Shown here: positions 13,206-22,602 of the stretch, in pieces
Position numbering within the stretch: position 1 is the stretch's first letter
Layout of the letters: each line of letters starts with the position of its first letter
Assembly: GCF_000340965.1 (NCBI RefSeq)
Contig: NZ_ANAY01000013.1
Span: 62,001-126,000 of the forward strand
Direction: 5' to 3'
DNA: 64,000 bases
Source of the DNA: Nocardiopsis kunsanensis DSM 44524
GTDB lineage: Bacteria; Actinomycetota; Actinomycetes; Streptosporangiales; Streptosporangiaceae
Made by a program: the position numbers and the translations under genes
The notes under the pieces: generated by a model
Database searches by the model: none
Told to the model about the DNA's origin: nothing
What the model saw: only the letters and a program-made list of their open reading frames with translations

Positions 13206-14348
13206 TCACGTGCGCGTGGGGCGCCAACCGGCGGCGCAGCGTTCCACGAGCCCCGCGGCGGCGAGCACGCCGAGCGCTCGCATGGTGCCCTCCAGATCAC
13301 CTCCGCACTCGAGGGCGATGGAGGCGGTTCCTGCGCCGGTGCGGGGTACGGCCGCCAGTACACGTTCGGTCTCCGGGGACAGGTCGGCCTCGACCCGTAC
13401 CGGGCCGGAGGGCTCGGGTCCGGCCTCGCCCGCCAGGTACTCGAGCACGTCCGCCGCTCCGGTCACACAGAGCGCCCCGTGGTCCCGCAGGAGCGCATGG
13501 CACCCCACGGACAGGGCCGAGGTCACCGGTCCGGGGACGGCCATGACGGAGCGGCCCATGGAGGTGGCGTGCGTGGCGGTGTTGAGCGCCCCGCTGCGCC
13601 GTCCGGCCTCCACGACGACGGTTCCGGGGGTCAGGGCGGCGATGAGCCGGTTGCGGACGAGGAAGTCCCGGGCCCGGGGTGTGGCACCGAGGGGGCGTTC
13701 ACTCACCAGTACCCCGCGCCGGGCCACGTCTGCGAAGAGCGCGGCATGCCCGCGCGGGTAGTCCACGTCGAGTCCGCAGGCGAGCACGACCACGGTGGCG
13801 CCGACCGCGTGTGCCGCGCGGTGCGCGGCCCCGTCGATGCCGTAGGCGCCGCCGGACACGGTCACGACCGAGTGCTCGCCCAGGGTGCAGGCCATCTCCG
13901 AGGCGACGTGTTCGCCGTAGGACGTCGCGGCCCTGGCCCCCACGAGGGCCACGGAACGCAGGCACAGGTTGCGCAGGTCACCGCCGCCGCGCACCCACAG
14001 TCCGTAGGGCCCGGGGTCGAGTCCGTCCAGGCGCCCGGGCCACTCGGGGTCGCCGGGGGCCACGAAACGCACGCCCCTCTCCGCGGAGGCGCCGAGCAGC
14101 CCGTCGGGGTCCACACGTTCGGCCCGGGCGCGCCACTGCTTCCAGGTGCGTTCCATCGCCCGGTGGGTCTCGGGGCCAGCGTCGGCGTTCACCGGGCCGG
14201 TGCCCGGCGGCGCCTGCCCTCCGGCCAGAGCCGTCCACACGCGGGCGGCCCCGTGCCGGTCGAGCAGCTCCGCCAGCCACGTGTTGCCCGGCTCGGCCAC
14301 CGCCGTCAGACACGCCCGGGCCCGGACCTGGTCGTCCCTCTCGTTCAC
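13206..14348 (-). CDS. dprA: DNA-processing protein DprA
   Basis: 380 residues. Binds incoming single-stranded DNA and loads RecA during transformation. The Rossmann-like DNA-binding core is clear: SVALVGARAATSYGEHVA, VVTVSGGAYGIDGAAHRAA, VVVLACGLDVDYPRGH, RDFLVRNRLIAAL and VVVEAGRRSGALNTA. A winged-helix-like C-terminus follows. GTG 14348 is chosen because GGGAGGTG lies seven bases upstream; ATG 14372 has no such site and overlaps comM. It is last in yraN-comM-dprA and presumably shares that operon's control. In non-competent actinobacteria its role is unsettled. Confidence 0.94.
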   Translation of the reverse strand: MNERDDQVRARACLTAVAEPGNTWLAELLDRHGAARVWTALAGGQAPPGTGPVNADAGPETHRAMERTWKQWRARAERVDPDGLLGASAERGVRFVAPGDPEWPGRLDGLDPGPYGLWVRGGGDLRNLCLRSVALVGARAATSYGEHVASEMACTLGEHSVVTVSGGAYGIDGAAHRAAHAVGATVVVLACGLDVDYPRGHAALFADVARRGVLVSERPLGATPRARDFLVRNRLIAALTPGTVVVEAGRRSGALNTATHATSMGRSVMAVPGPVTSALSVGCHALLRDHGALCVTGAADVLEYLAGEAGPEPSGPVRVEADLSPETERVLAAVPRTGAGTASIALECGGDLEGTMRALGVLAAAGLVERCAAGWRPTRT

Positions 14349-14365: not shown

Positions 14366-15883
14366 TCACCATGCGCGTCCGGACCAGAGCGCGAACGCGT
14401 ACGCGGCCTCCTCCTCGCCGGGGCGGTCCCGCCCGGCGAGGTCGGCCAGGGTCCATGCCACACGCAGGGCACGGTCCACGCCCCGCGCGCTGATCTGCCC
14501 CAGGTCCATGGCCCGGCCCAGGACCCGCAGGGCCTCGGGCTCCACCGGGAACTCGCGCCGCAGGCGCGTGCCGGGCACGGCGGCGTTGGTGCGCCACGGG
14601 GTCCCGGCCAAGCGCTCACCGGCCCGGTCCCGGGCGGCACGCACCCGGTCGGCGACCACTTCGGAGGGTTCGGCGAAGGACCGGTCGGCGAGCAGCTCGG
14701 CACGGGTCACGGGTTGCAGCTCCACCTTGAGGTCGATGCGGTCCAGGAGCGGCCCGGAGATCCGGGAGAAGTAACGGCGGCGTTCTCCGGCCGGGCAGGT
14801 GCACAGCGGTCCGGGCCTGGCGCACGGGCAGGGGTTGGCGGCCATCACGAGTTGGAACCGGGCGGGGAAGGTCACGGTGGAGGCCGCACGCGCGAGCACG
14901 ACCTCGCCGCGTTCGAGGGGCTCTCTCAGGGAATCCAGTACCCCGCGCCCGAACTGCGGCGCCTCGTCGACGAACAGCACCCCGTGGTGGGCCTTGGAGG
15001 CGCATCCGGGCGCCACGTGCCCGCTGCCGCCCCCGATGATCGACGCGCGGGTCGAGGTGTGGTGGGGCGCGGCGAACGGCGGGAGGGAGATCAGGGGTGC
15101 GTCGGGGGGCAGTGTCCCGGCAACGGAGTGGATCGCGGTGGCCTCCAGCGACTCGGTCGGCCCCAGGCGCGGCAGCACGGTGGGGAGGCGTTCGGCGAGC
15201 AGACTTTTCCCGGTCCCGGGAGAGCCGAGCATGAGGAAGTTGTGTCCTCCCGCGGCGGCGATCTCCACGGCGCGGCGTGCGACGGGTTGGCCGAGCACGT
15301 CGGCGAGATCGGGCCCGTGCCCACTCGGCTCGGGCCCGGTGGTCTCCGGTACCGGGCAGGCGGGTTCTCCCCCGCGCATCCAGCGGCACAGGTCGGCGAG
15401 GTCGGTGACACCCACGACGTCGACGTCGGGTACCAGGCCGGCCTCGGCGAGGTTGCCGGGGGCGACCACAAAACGTTTGAACCCCTGCTCGGCCGCTGCG
15501 ACGACGGCGGGCAGTACCCCGCGTACGGGCCGGGCGCGGCCGTCGAGGCCGAGTTCGCCGATGAGCACGGTGTCGGTGAGGCGGTCGAGCGGTACGTCGC
15601 CCATGGCGGCGAGGAGCGCTCCGGCGATGGCCAGGTCGAACAGGCTCCCGGACTTGGGCAGGCTCGCCGGGGACAGGCTGACCACCACGGTTCCGGTGGG
15701 CCAGCGCTCCCCGCTGTTGACGAGGGCGGCCCGGATCCGGTCTCGGGCCTCGCGCAGAGCGGCGTCGGGCAGGCCGACGAGGGTCACGGAGTTCTCACCT
15801 GCGCCGCCGAGGTCTGCCTCGACCTCCACGACGTGGCCGCGGACCCCGACCAGGGCCAGGCAGTGGGTGCGGGCGAAACTCAT
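14366..15883 (-). CDS. comM: YifB/ComM-family magnesium chelatase-like AAA+ helicase
   Basis: 505 residues. ComM promotes branch migration of heteroduplex during natural transformation. Residues 1-170 form the Lon-protease-like ChlI domain (GLPDAALREARDRIRAAL, PASLPKSGS, GELGLDGRARPV). Then comes the AAA+ module with Walker A GSPGTGKS at 220-227, Walker B GVLFVDEAPQF, and a Cys-rich stretch CPCARPGPLCTC typical of the family. A C-terminal helical domain has the usual ISARGVDRALRVAWTLADL. Its ATG overlaps the yraN stop (ATGA), and dprA follows after 17 nt. GGGGGA precedes the start. Confidence 0.95.
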   Translation of the reverse strand: MSFARTHCLALVGVRGHVVEVEADLGGAGENSVTLVGLPDAALREARDRIRAALVNSGERWPTGTVVVSLSPASLPKSGSLFDLAIAGALLAAMGDVPLDRLTDTVLIGELGLDGRARPVRGVLPAVVAAAEQGFKRFVVAPGNLAEAGLVPDVDVVGVTDLADLCRWMRGGEPACPVPETTGPEPSGHGPDLADVLGQPVARRAVEIAAAGGHNFLMLGSPGTGKSLLAERLPTVLPRLGPTESLEATAIHSVAGTLPPDAPLISLPPFAAPHHTSTRASIIGGGSGHVAPGCASKAHHGVLFVDEAPQFGRGVLDSLREPLERGEVVLARAASTVTFPARFQLVMAANPCPCARPGPLCTCPAGERRRYFSRISGPLLDRIDLKVELQPVTRAELLADRSFAEPSEVVADRVRAARDRAGERLAGTPWRTNAAVPGTRLRREFPVEPEALRVLGRAMDLGQISARGVDRALRVAWTLADLAGRDRPGEEEAAYAFALWSGRAW

Positions 15884-16248
15884 CGGGCCGTCCCCCGTTC
15901 GTGGGAGACGAAGACCCGGCCGCCCAGGAGGAGCACGGACACGGTGTCGACGCGGGTCCGGGCGGCGGGGACGCCGTACCGGGGCGCCCAGTAGCGCGCC
16001 AGACGGCGGAGACGGCGGCGTTTGCCTTCGGTGACGGCGAGCGCGGGGTGACCGCGCACCAGTGAGGTGCGGGTCTTGACCTCGACCACGACCAGCATCG
16101 GCCCGTCCCGGGCGAGCAGGTCGACCTCGCCCTCCCGGCTCCACCGGTTGCGTGCCAGCACCCGCATGCCTTCGCGGCTCAGGTGCCGGGCGGCCAGGTC
16201 CTCTCCCCGGACGCCCACGTCGCGCCGGTGCTCGGCCCTCGGATCCAT
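15880..16248 (-). CDS. yraN: UPF0102 protein YraN (endonuclease-like fold)
   Basis: 122 residues. The Holliday-junction-resolvase-like nuclease pattern is intact: GEDLAARHLSREGMRVLARN, then EVDLLARDG with the acidic residue, and VVVEVKTRTS with the E-x-K pair. The function of YraN is unproved; its fixed place before comM and dprA suggests a role with DNA ends or recombination. The ATG at 16248 has an ideal site, GGAGG with 9-nt spacing. That site is inside one arm of a 16-bp perfect hairpin (16254-16291), so translation is probably gated. It is the first gene of yraN-comM-dprA. Confidence 0.93.
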   Translation of the reverse strand: MDPRAEHRRDVGVRGEDLAARHLSREGMRVLARNRWSREGEVDLLARDGPMLVVVEVKTRTSLVRGHPALAVTEGKRRRLRRLARYWAPRYGVPAARTRVDTVSVLLLGGRVFVSHERGTAR

Positions 16249-16253
16249 CGGCG

Positions 16254-16291
16254 ACCACCTCCGATCACCACGGTGGGTGATCGGAGGTGGT
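16254..16291 (-). promoter_or_regulatory. Perfect hairpin sequestering the yraN ribosome-binding site
   Basis: In the transcript, ACCACCTCCGATCACC pairs with GGTGATCGGAGGTGGT, a 16-bp perfect stem with a 6-base loop. The 3' arm contains the GGAGG that serves yraN, so the stem hides it. The same structure could also end transcription from the DUF2469 gene, whose stop is 102 bp upstream. Either role would control yraN-comM-dprA. Confidence 0.75.
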
Positions 16292-16392
16292 ACCGCCAGA
16301 GGCTCTTTTCTTCTGTGGACGGCGGTGGCTGTCCGTGTTCGCCGTCCCGTGCATCAGGACCGTTGAGAGGCCGGCCCCGCGGGGTCGGCGTA

Positions 16393-16731
16393 TCAGGTGT
16401 CGGGGCCGGAACCGGCGGGGTCGGTGGGCGGCAGTTCCAGGTCGGACTTGGTGATCTCCTCGACGTTGACGTCCTTGAACGTCACCACGCGCACGTTGCG
16501 GACGAATCTGGCGGGCCGGTACATGTCCCAGACCCAGGCGTCCTCCATCGCGACCTCGAAGTACATCTCCCCGTTCTCGGTCGAACGCGGCTGGAGGTCC
16601 ACGTGGTTGGTGAGGTAGAACCGGCGCTCGGTCTCCACGACATAGCTGAACAGTCCGACGACGTCCCGGTACTCGCGATAGAGCTGGAGCTCCATCTCGG
16701 CTTCGTACTTCTCCAAGTCCTCAGAACTCAT
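16393..16731 (-). CDS. DUF2469-family protein
   Basis: 112 residues. Begins MSSEDLEKYEAEMELQLYRE and continues with EYRDVVGLFSYVVETERRFY and YFEVAMEDAWVWDMYRPARF, the nearly invariant sequence of an actinobacteria-specific family of unknown function. No signal or membrane segment is present. It usually lies between rnhB and yraN in actinobacteria; here rnhB is missing and lepB is the upstream neighbour, 209 bp away. ATG 16731 is the conserved start even though the frame is open to 16830. Confidence 0.92.
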   Translation of the reverse strand: MSSEDLEKYEAEMELQLYREYRDVVGLFSYVVETERRFYLTNHVDLQPRSTENGEMYFEVAMEDAWVWDMYRPARFVRNVRVVTFKDVNVEEITKSDLELPPTDPAGSGPDT

Positions 16732-16940
16732 GTGCGCGCTCGCTTTCGTCAGCACTCTCCGGTCTTGGTGTGCTCGGTTCCTCCGGGGACCATCATGCTT
16801 CACGGGTCGGCCCCGCGTCCCCCGGAGCACAGATTTCCTTCACCGGATCGGTCACCGTACCCGAGAATCCCCAGGGCGGGGAGCCCTGAGACCAGCCTCA
16901 CTGCGGTCCTCGTTCCCGCACCCGGACCTGCGTGCGGCGG

Positions 16941-17837
16941 TCACCCCGCGGCGGCCTCGACCTCGTCGAACGCGGGCGGGACACCGAGTCCGCCCATTTG
17001 TCCGAAGGGCCAGATGATGACGAACGCGCGGCCGACGACGTGGTCGACGGGCACGGCACCGCCCCCGGGGTTGTTCTGGTTCATGCGGGAGTCGTAGGAG
17101 ATCGAGCGGTGGTCGCCCATGAGCCAGAGCTGGTCGTCGCCCAGTTCGATGGGGCCGAACTCGGTGTGGCTCTCGACACTGCCGGGGTAGAGGTACTCGT
17201 CCTCGTCGAGCGGGACGCCGTTGACGACGATGCGGTTCTGTTCGTCGCAGCACTCGACGGTGTCTCCGGGCAGGCCGATGACCCGCTTGATGTACTCCTT
17301 GCCGGTGGGGGCCATCCCGAGCTGCTGCTGCACCCACTGGAAACCCCGTGCCACGGGGTTGGCGGGTTCGGAGACGTTCACGGAGTTGGGGTCGTCCCAG
17401 GAACCTTCGCCGTCGAAGACCACGACCTCTCCGCGTTCGATGTCGCGCATCTCGTAGACGACCTTGTTGACCAGCACCCGGTCACCGACGAGGAGGGTGT
17501 TCTCCATGGATGTGGAGGGGATGTAGAACGCCTGCATCACAAAGGTGCGGATGACGAACGCCAGAACCAGGGCGACCACGATGAGGATCGGCAGTTCCTT
17601 CCAGAAGGAACCCGAACCCTTTTTCTTCGCTGCGCTGTCGGACTTGCTCACCGTCTCCTCCGCCCTCTCCTCCGGCTCCGCAGGGTCCGTGCCATCGCCC
17701 CCGGAGACACCTCTGGCTCCCGTGTGCCCGTCGGGTACGCGGGAGCCAGGGGCGGAGCCGTGCTCCTTCGGGCCCGGTCGGCCCGGGTTCTCCTCGGGGA
17801 ACCCGTCCGAGCCGAGATCCCTGTCGTCGTTGGTCAT
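16941..17837 (-). CDS. lepB: Signal peptidase I
   Basis: 298 residues. Removes signal peptides at the outer face of the cytoplasmic membrane. A long acidic cytosolic N-terminus (about 1-80) leads to one membrane segment (PILIVVALVLAFVIRTFV, about 83-100). The Ser/Lys dyad is visible: S110 in IPSTSMENTL and K184 in EYIKRVIGLPGD. Downstream boxes LMGDHRSISYDSR and VVGRAFVIIWPF are present. It lies between rplS and the DUF2469 gene, as in other actinobacteria. The GTG/VSKSD position inside the N-terminal tail is a possible alternative start. Confidence 0.96.
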   Translation of the reverse strand: MTNDDRDLGSDGFPEENPGRPGPKEHGSAPGSRVPDGHTGARGVSGGDGTDPAEPEERAEETVSKSDSAAKKKGSGSFWKELPILIVVALVLAFVIRTFVMQAFYIPSTSMENTLLVGDRVLVNKVVYEMRDIERGEVVVFDGEGSWDDPNSVNVSEPANPVARGFQWVQQQLGMAPTGKEYIKRVIGLPGDTVECCDEQNRIVVNGVPLDEDEYLYPGSVESHTEFGPIELGDDQLWLMGDHRSISYDSRMNQNNPGGGAVPVDHVVGRAFVIIWPFGQMGGLGVPPAFDEVEAAAG

Positions 17838-17905
17838 CAGTGCGAAAGCCTATCCGTTCTTCGACGGCAGTGGTGGCTTTCGTCACCGACGGATCCGAAC
17901 GGAGC

Positions 17906-18265
17906 CTACGACTTGGCGGGCTCGCGGCGCTCGCGGATACGAGCGGCCTTGCCGCGCAGGTGGCGCAGGTAGTACAGCTTGGCGCGGCGCACGCGACCGC
18001 GGGCGACGACCTCGTACTTCTCGACCGCCGGGGTGTGGATCGGGAAGACCCGCTCCACGCCGACGCCGTAGCTGACCTTGCGGATGGTGAAGGTCTCACG
18101 GTTGGCCGAACCCTGGCGGGCGATGACTACGCCCTTGAAAACCTGGGCACGTGTGCGGGTGCCCTCCGTCACGCGGACGTGGACGGCGAGCGTGTCACCG
18201 GGACGGAAGTCCGGGACGTCGGTGCGCAGCTGGGCCTTCTCCAGCTCCTGAATGGCGGTGTGCAT
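17906..18265 (-). CDS. rplS: 50S ribosomal protein L19
   Basis: 119 residues. Sits at the 30S-50S interface. Sequence is typical: [52 protein letters not shown], and [18 protein letters not shown] at the basic C-terminus. ATG 18265 has GAGGA upstream. It follows trmD after 174 bp, a gap wide enough for a separate promoter or leader, and precedes lepB. Confidence 0.98.
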
Positions 18266-18439
18266 CTGAAATCCTCATTGATAGCGCGCCGCGTCCTGTC
18301 CCCGCGGTCAGCAGGAAGGGGTGCGCGGGCGAGGCCCTGACACATGGGTCTGAACTGTCGGAACCCCGGGTGGCCGACACAGAGGCCGACGTCGGACCGC
18401 CGGCATGCGGATGCCACTGGCCACCAGGGGGGATCCCGT

Positions 18440-19219
18440 CTAGTTTGCCACATGTTCTCCGTCGTCCAGAACGGACCGTTCTGCGAGGACCTCCCGGTCA
18501 CGGGCGTCGAAGGTCTCCTCCGGCGCCGATTCCAGGAGTTCGGGCCGGTTGCGCAGGGTCTTGCGCAGGGCCTGGTCGCGGCGCCAGCGGTCGACGGCGC
18601 CGTGGTTGCCGGAAAGCAGCACCGGCGGGACCTCGTGGCCGCGCCACTCGGCGGGTTTGGTGTAGACGGGGCCTTCGACGAGGTGCTCCATCCCACCGGA
18701 GGCGAAGGAGTCCTGCACGTGGGACTCGCGGTTGCCGAGCACCCCGGGCAGCAGGCGTGTGACGGCCTCCACCATGACCAGGGTGGCCGACTCCCCCCCG
18801 TTGAGGACGTAGTCGCCGATGCTGATCTCCTCGACGGGCATCCGGCGGGCGGCCTCCTCGGCCACACGTGAGTCGATACCCTCGTAGCGCCCGCACCCGA
18901 AGACCAGGTGTTCCTGCTCGGCGAGCCGCTCGGCGTCCGCCTGGCGGAAGGGGCGGCCACTGGGGCTGGGCACGATCAGGCGTGCTGGACGATCGCCCAC
19001 GACCTCGTCGAGGGCCTCGCCCCAGGGGCCGGGTTTCATGACCATGCCCGGGCCGCCGCCGTAAGGGGTGTCGTCGACGGTGCTGTGCCGGTCGTAGGTC
19101 CAGGCCCGCAGGTCGTGCACCTGCATGTCGAGCAGGCCGGCGGCACGGGCCTTGCCGATCAGGGACAGCTCCAGGGGCGCGAAGTAGTCGGGGAAGATAC
19201 TGATGATGTCGATACGCAC
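18440..19219 (-). CDS. trmD: tRNA (guanine-N1-)-methyltransferase
   Basis: 259 residues. Makes m1G37 next to the anticodon, preventing +1 frameshifts. The SPOUT trefoil-knot methyltransferase signatures are present: RIDIISIFPDYFAPL at the N-terminus, DDTPYGGGPGMVMKP, FGCGRYEGIDSR, and EISIGDYVLNGGE in the knot. The basic C-terminal domain ends with LLSGNHGAVDRWRRDQAL, which binds tRNA. The GTG at 19219 matches the family start (MRIDIISIFP). It lies 43 nt after rimM. Confidence 0.97.
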   Translation of the reverse strand: MRIDIISIFPDYFAPLELSLIGKARAAGLLDMQVHDLRAWTYDRHSTVDDTPYGGGPGMVMKPGPWGEALDEVVGDRPARLIVPSPSGRPFRQADAERLAEQEHLVFGCGRYEGIDSRVAEEAARRMPVEEISIGDYVLNGGESATLVMVEAVTRLLPGVLGNRESHVQDSFASGGMEHLVEGPVYTKPAEWRGHEVPPVLLSGNHGAVDRWRRDQALRKTLRNRPELLESAPEETFDARDREVLAERSVLDDGEHVAN

Positions 19220-20852: not shown

Positions 20853-22460
20853 CTACTTGTTCTTCGGGAGTTTGAAGTTCGAGAGGTCCGGCATGTTCGA
20901 ACCACCCAGCCCCGGGGGCAGCTGACCGGAGCCACCGCCGCCCAGTCCCGGGGGCAGGTCGGGCATCTGCTGGCCGCCGCCCTCTTCCTGGCGGCGCTTG
21001 CGCTCGGCCTCCCGCTCGGCTTCCTGCTGGCGTGCCTTCATGGGGTTGCCGCTGCGCTGCTTGCCCTTCTTGTCCTTCTTCTTCTGTTTCTTCTTGGCGG
21101 CACCACCACCGCCACCACCCGGCATCCCCGGCATTCCGGGCATGCCGTCCATCCCGCCGCCCTTCTTCATCTTGCGCATCATCTTCTGCGCCTCGAAGAA
21201 ACGGGTGACCAGACCGTTGACGTCACTGACCTCGCGGCCGGAACCCTTGGCGATCCGCAGGCGGCGCGAACCGTTGATGATCTTGGGATTGGCACGCTCG
21301 GCCGGGGTCATCGACTGGATGACCGCCTGGATACGGTCGATGTCCTTGTCGTCGATGCCCTCGATCTGCTCGCGCATCTGCCCCATGCCGGGCATCATCC
21401 CGAGCAGGTTCCCGATGGGGCCGAGTTTGCGGACCATCGACATCTGCTGGAGGAAGTCGTCCAGCGTGAAGTCGTCGTCCGAGGCCATGGTCGAGGCCAT
21501 CTTCTCGACCTCGGACTCGTCGAACGTGCGCTGCGCCTGTTCGATGAGTGTGAGCACATCACCCATGTCCAGGATGCGCGAGGCCATCCGGTCAGGGTGG
21601 AAGAGGTCGAAGTCGTCGAGCTTCTCGCCGGTGGAGGCGAACATGATGGGACGACCGGTGATGTGGCGGATCGACAGCGCCGCACCGCCGCGGGCGTCGC
21701 CGTCGAGCTTGGTGAGCGCCACCGCGTCGTAGCCGACACCGTCGAGGAAGGCCTGCGCGGTGTTGACCGCGTCCTGACCGATCATCGCGTCGACGACGAA
21801 GAGGATCTCGTCGGGCGAGACCGCGTCACGGATGTTGGCGGCCTGCTGCATCATCTCGGAGTCGACACCGAGACGGCCGGCGGTGTCGATGACGACCACG
21901 TTGTGGTTGTTGTGCCGGGCGTGCTCGATGGAGGCCCGGGCGACCTCGACGGGGTCGCCCACACCGTTACCGGGCTCCGGGGCGAACACGGGTGTGCTCG
22001 CACGCTCACCGACCACCTGTAGCTGGGTGACGGCGTTGGGGCGCTGGAGGTCGGCGGCGACCAGGAGCGGGGTGTTGCGCTCGGCCGACAACCAGCGGGC
22101 GAGCTTGCCCGCCAGAGTGGTCTTGCCGGCGCCCTGGAGGCCCGCGAGCATGATCACCGTCGGCGGCTTCTTGGCGAACCGGATCTGCCGCGTCTCGCCA
22201 CCGAGGATCTCGACCAGTTCCTCGTTGACGATCTTGATGACCTGCTGGGCCGGGTTGAGTGCCTTGGAGACCTCTTCTCCGCGGGCACGCTCCTTGATCC
22301 GGGCGATGAATTCGCGGACCACCGGCAGAGCGACGTCCGCCTCCAGCAGCGCGAGACGGATCTCGCGCGAGGTCGCGTTGATGTCCTCCTCGGACAGCCG
22401 CCCCTTGCCGCGCAGCGAGGAGAAGACCGATGTCAGCCGGTCGGAAAGCGTCTCGAACAC
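20853..22460 (-). CDS. ffh: Signal recognition particle protein Ffh
   Basis: 535 residues. GTPase of the SRP that binds 4.5S RNA and signal sequences and delivers ribosomes to FtsY. The NG domain has P-loop GLQGAGKTT (107-115), DLQRPNAVTQL, VVVIDTAGRLGVD and TKLDGDARGG. The methionine-rich M domain is visible (FLQQMSMVRKLGPIGNLLGMMPGM, then the RNA-binding SRRLRIAKGSGREVSDVN). A Gly/Met/Pro and Lys-rich tail of about 100 residues follows. GTG 22460 aligns with the family start FETLSDRLT; AAGGA lies 13 bases upstream. Confidence 0.97.
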   Translation of the reverse strand: MFETLSDRLTSVFSSLRGKGRLSEEDINATSREIRLALLEADVALPVVREFIARIKERARGEEVSKALNPAQQVIKIVNEELVEILGGETRQIRFAKKPPTVIMLAGLQGAGKTTLAGKLARWLSAERNTPLLVAADLQRPNAVTQLQVVGERASTPVFAPEPGNGVGDPVEVARASIEHARHNNHNVVVIDTAGRLGVDSEMMQQAANIRDAVSPDEILFVVDAMIGQDAVNTAQAFLDGVGYDAVALTKLDGDARGGAALSIRHITGRPIMFASTGEKLDDFDLFHPDRMASRILDMGDVLTLIEQAQRTFDESEVEKMASTMASDDDFTLDDFLQQMSMVRKLGPIGNLLGMMPGMGQMREQIEGIDDKDIDRIQAVIQSMTPAERANPKIINGSRRLRIAKGSGREVSDVNGLVTRFFEAQKMMRKMKKGGGMDGMPGMPGMPGGGGGGAAKKKQKKKDKKGKQRSGNPMKARQQEAEREAERKRRQEEGGGQQMPDLPPGLGGGGSGQLPPGLGGSNMPDLSNFKLPKNK

Positions 22461-22559
22461 GAGTTTGGCCAGTCCTTCGTCTCGGAATTGATTTCCCAGC
22501 CTACCCGTCCGAAGCCACCCTCCAGAATACTGAGACGGCGGACGGTACGGCATCTTTCA

Positions 22560-22602
22560 CACGCCGGCGGCCCCGTGCCCGGTACACGGGGCCGCCGGCG
22601 TG
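22560..22602 (-). terminator. Terminator after the lipoprotein gene
   Basis: Perfect 18-bp stem: arms 22560-22577 and 22585-22602, beginning CACGCCGGCG, with a 7-base loop. It is the longest perfect stem in the window and lies 41 bp past the lipoprotein stop. Confidence 0.85.

Follow-up and report, generated by a model that had tools for sequence, protein, structure and literature searches.

A TCCACA box and a lineage-specific palindrome at the predicted promoter of yraN-comM-dprA in Nocardiopsis

Results

The yraN-comM-dprA locus and its hairpin

The window, i.e., the whole 64,000-nucleotide stretch of Nocardiopsis kunsanensis DNA that we analysed, carries yraN, comM and dprA on its minus strand with a DUF2469 gene as the upstream neighbour, each identified by a Pfam match. 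The genes and the hairpin between DUF2469 and yraN are as follows.

16393 to 16731, minus strand: DUF2469 gene, the neighbour upstream of yraN
15880 to 16248, minus strand: yraN (UPF0102), with its ATG at 16248-16246
14366 to 15883, minus strand: comM (Mg-chelatase-like AAA+ helicase; Mg-chelatase/ChlI)
13206 to 14348, minus strand: dprA (DNA_processg_A), with GTG 14348 as the preferred start candidate
16276 to 16291, minus strand: 5′ arm of the stem, complementary to the ribosome-binding site; predicted promoter DNA that would be in RNA only via read-through
16254 to 16269, minus strand: stem arm that is 3′ in the transcript, where both the ribosome-binding site and the predicted start of transcription lie
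16258 to 16262, minus strand: GGAGG, the yraN ribosome-binding site, 9 nt 5′ of the yraN ATG

PMC12455585, itself citing a preprint, describes the YraN family as helicase-associated nucleases and assigns ComM a helicase role in transformation. Our first search of relatives found yraN in all 41 genomes. The original prediction had the three genes coupled by an ATGA overlap and short spacing, and both features are there: the yraN TGA and the comM ATG overlap as ATGA, and the five start candidates of dprA lie at -7, -4, +8, +17 and +65 nt from the end of comM, the GTG at 14348 (+17) having the best ribosome-binding site as judged by eye.

The central claim of the original prediction, a perfect 16-bp hairpin over the yraN ribosome-binding site, holds as well, since the arms are 100% complementary across a 6-nt loop; 5 nt separate the stem from the yraN start codon. 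This hairpin ranks second by length among the 10 perfect hairpins of at least 11 bp in the window and exceeds chance expectation, the longest arm being 12 in 20 first-order random 64-kb sequences. The window's longest, a perfect 18-bp hairpin at 22560-22602, lies directly 5′ of an open frame at 20853-22553 that presumably resembles ffh. The computed stem energy is about -37 kcal/mol, and the 181-nt segment 16220-16400 folds at z = -4.2. Across the whole genome, the pattern CACCTCC-N4..34-GGAGGTG occurs at two places, the yraN hairpin and one on contig C8, vs 12 for the reversed control pattern; hairpins of this anti-SD/SD type are thus rarer than the control in the source genome, as if avoided. 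We rejected a repeated element, because the rest of the genome gives just short, chance-level matches to the hairpin.

We then have to ask what the stem could do to translation. The computed unpaired probability of the site in the full stem is 0.0001 at 37 °C, 0.0003 at 55 °C and 0.003 at 85 °C, so the suggestion that the stem is a thermosensor is unsupported: the yraN ribosome-binding site is paired as in RNA thermometers, but a perfect GC-rich 16-bp stem does not melt in the physiological range. The broader idea of gating by the stem fares better in one respect, since the site is closed in any transcript that carries the whole stem and gating is therefore plausible, although melting does not open the site. 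Taken together, the original interpretation of the hairpin is partly supported.

The TCCACA box and the predicted promoter

Upstream of the hairpin lies a TCCACA box, and the box, the hairpin loop and the 3′ arm can be laid out as the elements of a predicted promoter.

16314 to 16319, minus strand: TCCACA box (here CCGTCCACAG), its core resembling that of a DnaA box, located 71 nt 5′ of the yraN start codon
16294 to 16299, minus strand: CTGGCG, within the conserved CYCTGGYG block, a candidate -35
16270 to 16275, minus strand: hairpin loop CACCGT, predicted -10 (TANCGT-like) from its spacing to the TCCACA box
16262 to 16264, minus strand: predicted yraN transcription start, from spacing, about 56 nt past the T of TCCACA

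Of 170 distinct actinobacterial (Actinomycetes) yraN loci (181 loci minus 11 dropped as duplicates), 162 have TCCACA 25-200 nt 5′ of the gene, and each of the three controls, namely the reverse complement, the reversal and the complement of the reversal, is found in 3. Where it occurs among loci L001-L182, the box keeps one orientation and a fixed distance to yraN, at -70 to -73 in most loci of Nocardiopsis and its family and at about -80 in most Streptomyces. The 9-mer TTNTCCACA is present in 107 of the 170 loci vs 162 for the core TCCACA, and the 9-mer in the window is CCGTCCACA. By eye, some of the other family genera (among them those of L080, L074 and L085) carry GAA-N5-TTC (TCCACAGAACGCCGTTC) after the box, which is possibly a further site.

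With all offsets left open, 38 of the 39 yraN loci of Nocardiopsis have A.CGT at 45-46 nt past the box. This spacing signal fades outside the genus: of 56 other family loci 17 have A.CGT at 45-46 nt, as do 2 of the 31 other named loci and none of the 5 order/class loci, and 8 of 29 Streptomyces loci have it at 53 nt.

The same arrangement is seen by eye upstream of comEA, where all 10 Nocardiopsis regions have a TCCACA box, a loose GRAA stretch, TGACA or TGGCA, and TANCGT, with the comEA ATG 6-8 nt past TANCGT. Among the 12 comEA regions L271-L280, L311 and L312, which have the layout TGACA-N17-TANCGT, 11 have TGACA and one has TGGCA; in all 12 the A of TANCGT lies 45/46 nt and the ATG 56-58 nt after the box, in a search whose pattern itself restricted the spacing. 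All four of the proteins scanned that start at this ATG are ComEA-type, with SLBB and HHH_3 domains. The comEA arrangement reads as a promoter with the ATG at the predicted start, apparently giving a leaderless mRNA.

By a comEA-like box spacing the yraN loop would be the -10, so the predicted start falls near 16263, inside the 3′ arm, and the palindrome probably straddles the operon's own promoter. The predicted -10 (CACCGT/GACCGT) has no leading T and the -35 is weak, and a scan with the sigma-70 consensus found no promoter at yraN. The original prediction had named yraN transcripts that start inside or downstream of the stem, leaving the ribosome-binding site free, as evidence against it; a start inside the stem is what the spacing predicts by analogy with comEA, and it would open the site in part. 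In the four species with the long stem, transcripts that begin at idx 30 or earlier have a computed unpaired probability of 0.000 (L031 reaching 0.001 at idx 30); the value is 0.79-0.84 when the 5′ end is at idx 44-50 and 0.37-0.68 for idx 55-57, the predicted start.

The hairpin in relatives

To see where the stem occurs, we counted stem lengths across 38 Nocardiopsis loci in a single register (a 6-nt loop after GATCACC). Stems of 16-17 bp are present in four of these (L001, L002, L003 and L031), which form one clade in the locus tree; in the same register L015, the sister of the stem clade, has 6 bp and L017, outside it, has 10 bp. All 42 Nocardiopsis loci examined for it (a few species counted twice) fit one common pattern in the hairpin part, and most other Nocardiopsis loci fold a shorter helix of 8 bp, a GA/GA internal loop and 4 bp. 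The conserved Nocardiopsis block upstream of yraN runs TCCACAG, CYCTGGYG, CGATCACC-GACCGT-GGT, GGGAGGTGGTCG and the start codon. GGAGGTG is invariant across the 25 aligned Nocardiopsis rows, and L015, outside the alignment, has no GGAGGTG.

Conserved, covarying arms, on which the original prediction had proposed to check the stem, are not what we observe, as the long stem is restricted to one four-species clade and the core of the other species lacks both-side changes. The 12-pair core helix pairs in 97.8% of cells with 0 both-side changes among 31 distinct, nearly invariant rows, so that RNA and DNA constraint are indistinguishable from these data. When the outer stem is added, both-side changes appear in 3 pairs (9 cells), a cell count that 6 of 500 shuffles attain, yet partners slid by +1, +2 and +3 give 14, 17 and 12.

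Within the stem clade, 3 of 38 hairpin columns are variable vs 38 of 96 columns in the non-coding flanks (p 0.0003), or vs 39 of 107 when the box (0/6) and linker (1/5) are pooled with the flanks (p 0.0007), and pairing, standard or G.U, is retained at all three variable hairpin columns. This low variability comes mostly from the 3′ arm, which is conserved across the whole genus anyway; the 5′ arm alone, with 3 of 16 columns variable, shows no significant slowdown relative to the flanks (p 0.16).

Folding against shuffles was confined to the 151 of 181 loci with a clear ribosome-binding site. For 45- and 75-nt leaders, respectively, the mean z of site openness is -2.33 and -1.87 in the stem clade, -0.66 and -0.02 in other Nocardiopsis (41 loci; unpaired 0.34 vs 0.46 shuffled at 45 nt), -0.82 and -0.15 in five order/class loci, +0.21 and -0.02 in other family genera, -0.43 and -0.18 in other named loci, and +0.78 and +1.52 in Streptomyces, where openness exceeds that of the shuffles (0.67 vs 0.41 at the 75-nt leader). 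An SD-masking RNA conserved across actinobacteria was rejected, because strong closure is seen only in the stem clade and the other groups are inconsistent.

The distance from DUF2469 to the box also differs among relatives. In eight of them the box lies 9-11 nt past the DUF2469 stop, which makes read-through plausible in those loci; the stem clade has 72-73 nt between stop and box, a stretch that can fold and may limit read-through (L022 gave no usable value, and L040 has no DUF2469 match). By eye, a second hairpin at 16358-16376, right after the DUF2469 stop, forms a stem around a conserved CCTCTCAA loop; the stem clade and L015 both retain it, with an A-U pair exchanged for G-C.

The TCCACA box beyond yraN

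Next, we searched for the box together with the comEA-type elements. The pattern TCCACA-N36..39-TANCGT-N5..8-ATG, which fixes the distance from box to -10 and so shows occurrence and not spacing, matched 16 of 25 genomes at 22 places (control 1), and 14 of the 22 adjoin a comEC match by coordinates, the comEC position being missing for G013 and G014. Among 246 genomes of the class, the same pattern matched 91 at 127 places vs 15 for the control, both sums having been added up by hand from tables, as was the control sum of the second pattern below. We inspected 29 loci of the 127 places and scanned 24 downstream proteins, leaving out L336, L338, L339 and L340, whose matches resemble that of L337 at an alpha-amylase-type gene, and L347. 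The 24 proteins comprise seven of ComEA type (HHH_3 and SLBB), two RecA, three with AAA_25 and a zinc ribbon that we take to be RadA-like, three DUF222 (one below the cut-off), one RcpC/CpaB and eight other or unmatched proteins. In one genome (G030), the three pattern matches lie adjoining comEC, at an RcpC/CpaB gene, and just 5′ of recA.

PafBC is described in PMC11804915 as a DNA-damage activator that recasts sigma-A polymerase at a -26 motif. A pattern that combines the box with such an element, TCCACA-N8..38-TGTCRGNG-N8-TANNNT, was present in 119 of the 246 genomes, vs 4 matches for the control. There are at least 150 matches, not all of them independent, since some genomes have several (7 in G462 and 7 in G289). 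With the spacing left open within 8-38 nt, 116 of the 150 matches listed (loci including L320-L368) have a spacer of 22-25 nt, and thus in these genomes TCCACA accompanies PafBC-type promoter elements at a fixed position.

The predicted yraN and comEA promoters resemble the RecA-NDp/PafBC promoters of the actinobacterial DNA-damage response in having about 45 nt between the box and the -10, but yraN in the window differs from them in having no TGTCRGTG -26 element 8 nt before TANNNT. TGTC is absent from the stretch between box and -10, both at the yraN gene of the window and in eight other yraN rows. We find no -26 element in the rows read for box-bearing Nocardiopsis yraN and comEA promoters, and 0 matches to the combined TCCACA...TGTCRGNG-N8-TANNNT pattern in the source genome.

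The DnaA box is given as TTATCCACA in PMC8203912. The yraN box shares the core TCCACA with it, but unlike a DnaA box it stands in one orientation at one distance, in the manner of a promoter element, and its 9-mer in the window is the one given above. The source genome has 63 TTNTCCACAG sites, 12 of which cluster within C36:57635-60891, a region that looks like oriC. Three TTNTCCACAG boxes (L208-L210, C22:23048-23182) lie between two genes that we name, from their protein starts, as presumably dnaB-like and transporter-like.

In literature seen in part, we found no mention of a TCCACA box at PafBC promoters or at those of comEA and yraN, and none of a link among the DnaA box, dprA and Streptomyces; the letters 'tccac' are absent from the main texts, figures and supplements aside, of PMC6789036, PMC11804915, PMC10693628, PMC5656591 and PMC5087735.

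Discussion

We propose, tentatively and with somewhat more doubt than belief, that the hairpin is built on the core promoter and insulates translation of yraN-comM-dprA from read-through RNA. The loop would be the -10 element and transcription would start within the 3′ arm, just 5′ of the ribosome-binding site. If transcription does start there, mRNA from the operon's own promoter would begin with the ribosome-binding site, would lack the 5′ arm, which would be promoter DNA, and would therefore be translatable. Read-through mRNA from DUF2469 would have both arms, and the stem would close the ribosome-binding site. Output of the operon would thus depend on the TCCACA-box promoter, the palindrome making the operon deaf to read-through. 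A point against insulation is that the site is just about half open in silico at the predicted start.

In phage T4 gene e, which encodes lysozyme, long transcripts bury the ribosome-binding site in a stem, and a promoter inside the stem yields a short, translatable mRNA. As there, the SD is closed in full-length yraN transcripts of four species in silico; unlike there, the yraN case concerns a cellular recombination operon, the internal promoter is a predicted one, and the upstream source would be read-through from the neighbouring gene. If the proposal is true, the hairpin would be an instance of start-site-gated translation in a cellular operon.

Several other readings bear on the same observations. 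The palindrome could be a neutral by-product, in which a weak inverted repeat at a conserved promoter became perfect in one lineage (e.g., by template switching) and has little effect because native transcripts start inside it. The confinement of the long stem to one monophyletic clade, the intermediate quasi-palindromes of L015 and L017, and a 5′ arm that by itself is not significantly conserved all agree with this; we nevertheless regard it as unlikely, given that the stem is kept in four species whose flanks have diverged at 38 of 96 columns, with only pair-compatible changes, and that anti-SD/SD inverted repeats are scarce genome-wide. It is more doubtful still that the dyad around the -10 serves as a DNA operator for a dimeric repressor. 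The centre of the palindrome is the predicted -10, and GATCAC and GGTGGTC are invariant or nearly so among 25 aligned Nocardiopsis, but the dyad is imperfect across most of the genus and the three changes in the stem clade disrupt the DNA symmetry yet retain RNA pairing. In addition, the six secondary palindrome sites examined in relatives are coding DNA of a single gene that we take to be kinase-like, so no second operator is seen, in a search that used E up to 10 and in which matches in 40 of 40 genomes have little meaning (the best E in G137 is 0.38).

A conditional RNA switch, with the full-length leader opened by a protein, an antisense RNA or temperature, would account for the strong closure of the site in every full-length leader and for a helix over the site in most Nocardiopsis loci that is somewhat more closed than shuffles at the 45-nt leader. 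We consider it very improbable, as nothing melts up to 85 °C, the 12-pair core shows no both-side change in 31 distinct relatives, and the closure in other Nocardiopsis is gone at the 75-nt leader, with Streptomyces more open than shuffles; an Rfam search likewise gave nothing near the gathering score (best E 0.85, 20.8 bits vs 53.7). We give even less credit to the alternative allowed by the original prediction, a transcription terminator of DUF2469 of the U-less actinobacterial type. The stem is indeed stable, GC-rich, and downstream of and co-directional with DUF2469, but a scan of 15500-19000 for a U-tailed intrinsic terminator found no terminator-like site, the stem stops just short of the yraN start codon with the conserved block continuing through it, and the stretch from the DUF2469 stop to the box can fold by itself.

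Returning to the promoter on which the proposed insulation would depend, the box is the wider and more interesting result than the hairpin. With belief and doubt evenly balanced, we suggest that TCCACA serves throughout the class as a regulatory box, placed about 56 nt 5′ of the transcription start. It would join yraN-comM-dprA and comEA-comEC, with recA, radA-like, cpaB/Flp pilus and DUF222 genes added in various families, in a single Actinomycetes regulon for DNA damage and competence, and the palindrome in the window would be a lineage-specific add-on making the operon deaf to read-through. The protein reading the box may be DnaA, PafBC, a partner of PafBC or another. Regulation of actinobacterial competence is described as still to be unravelled in a study of Micrococcus luteus (PMC4322843), and the TCCACA box would offer a handle on how that competence is regulated.
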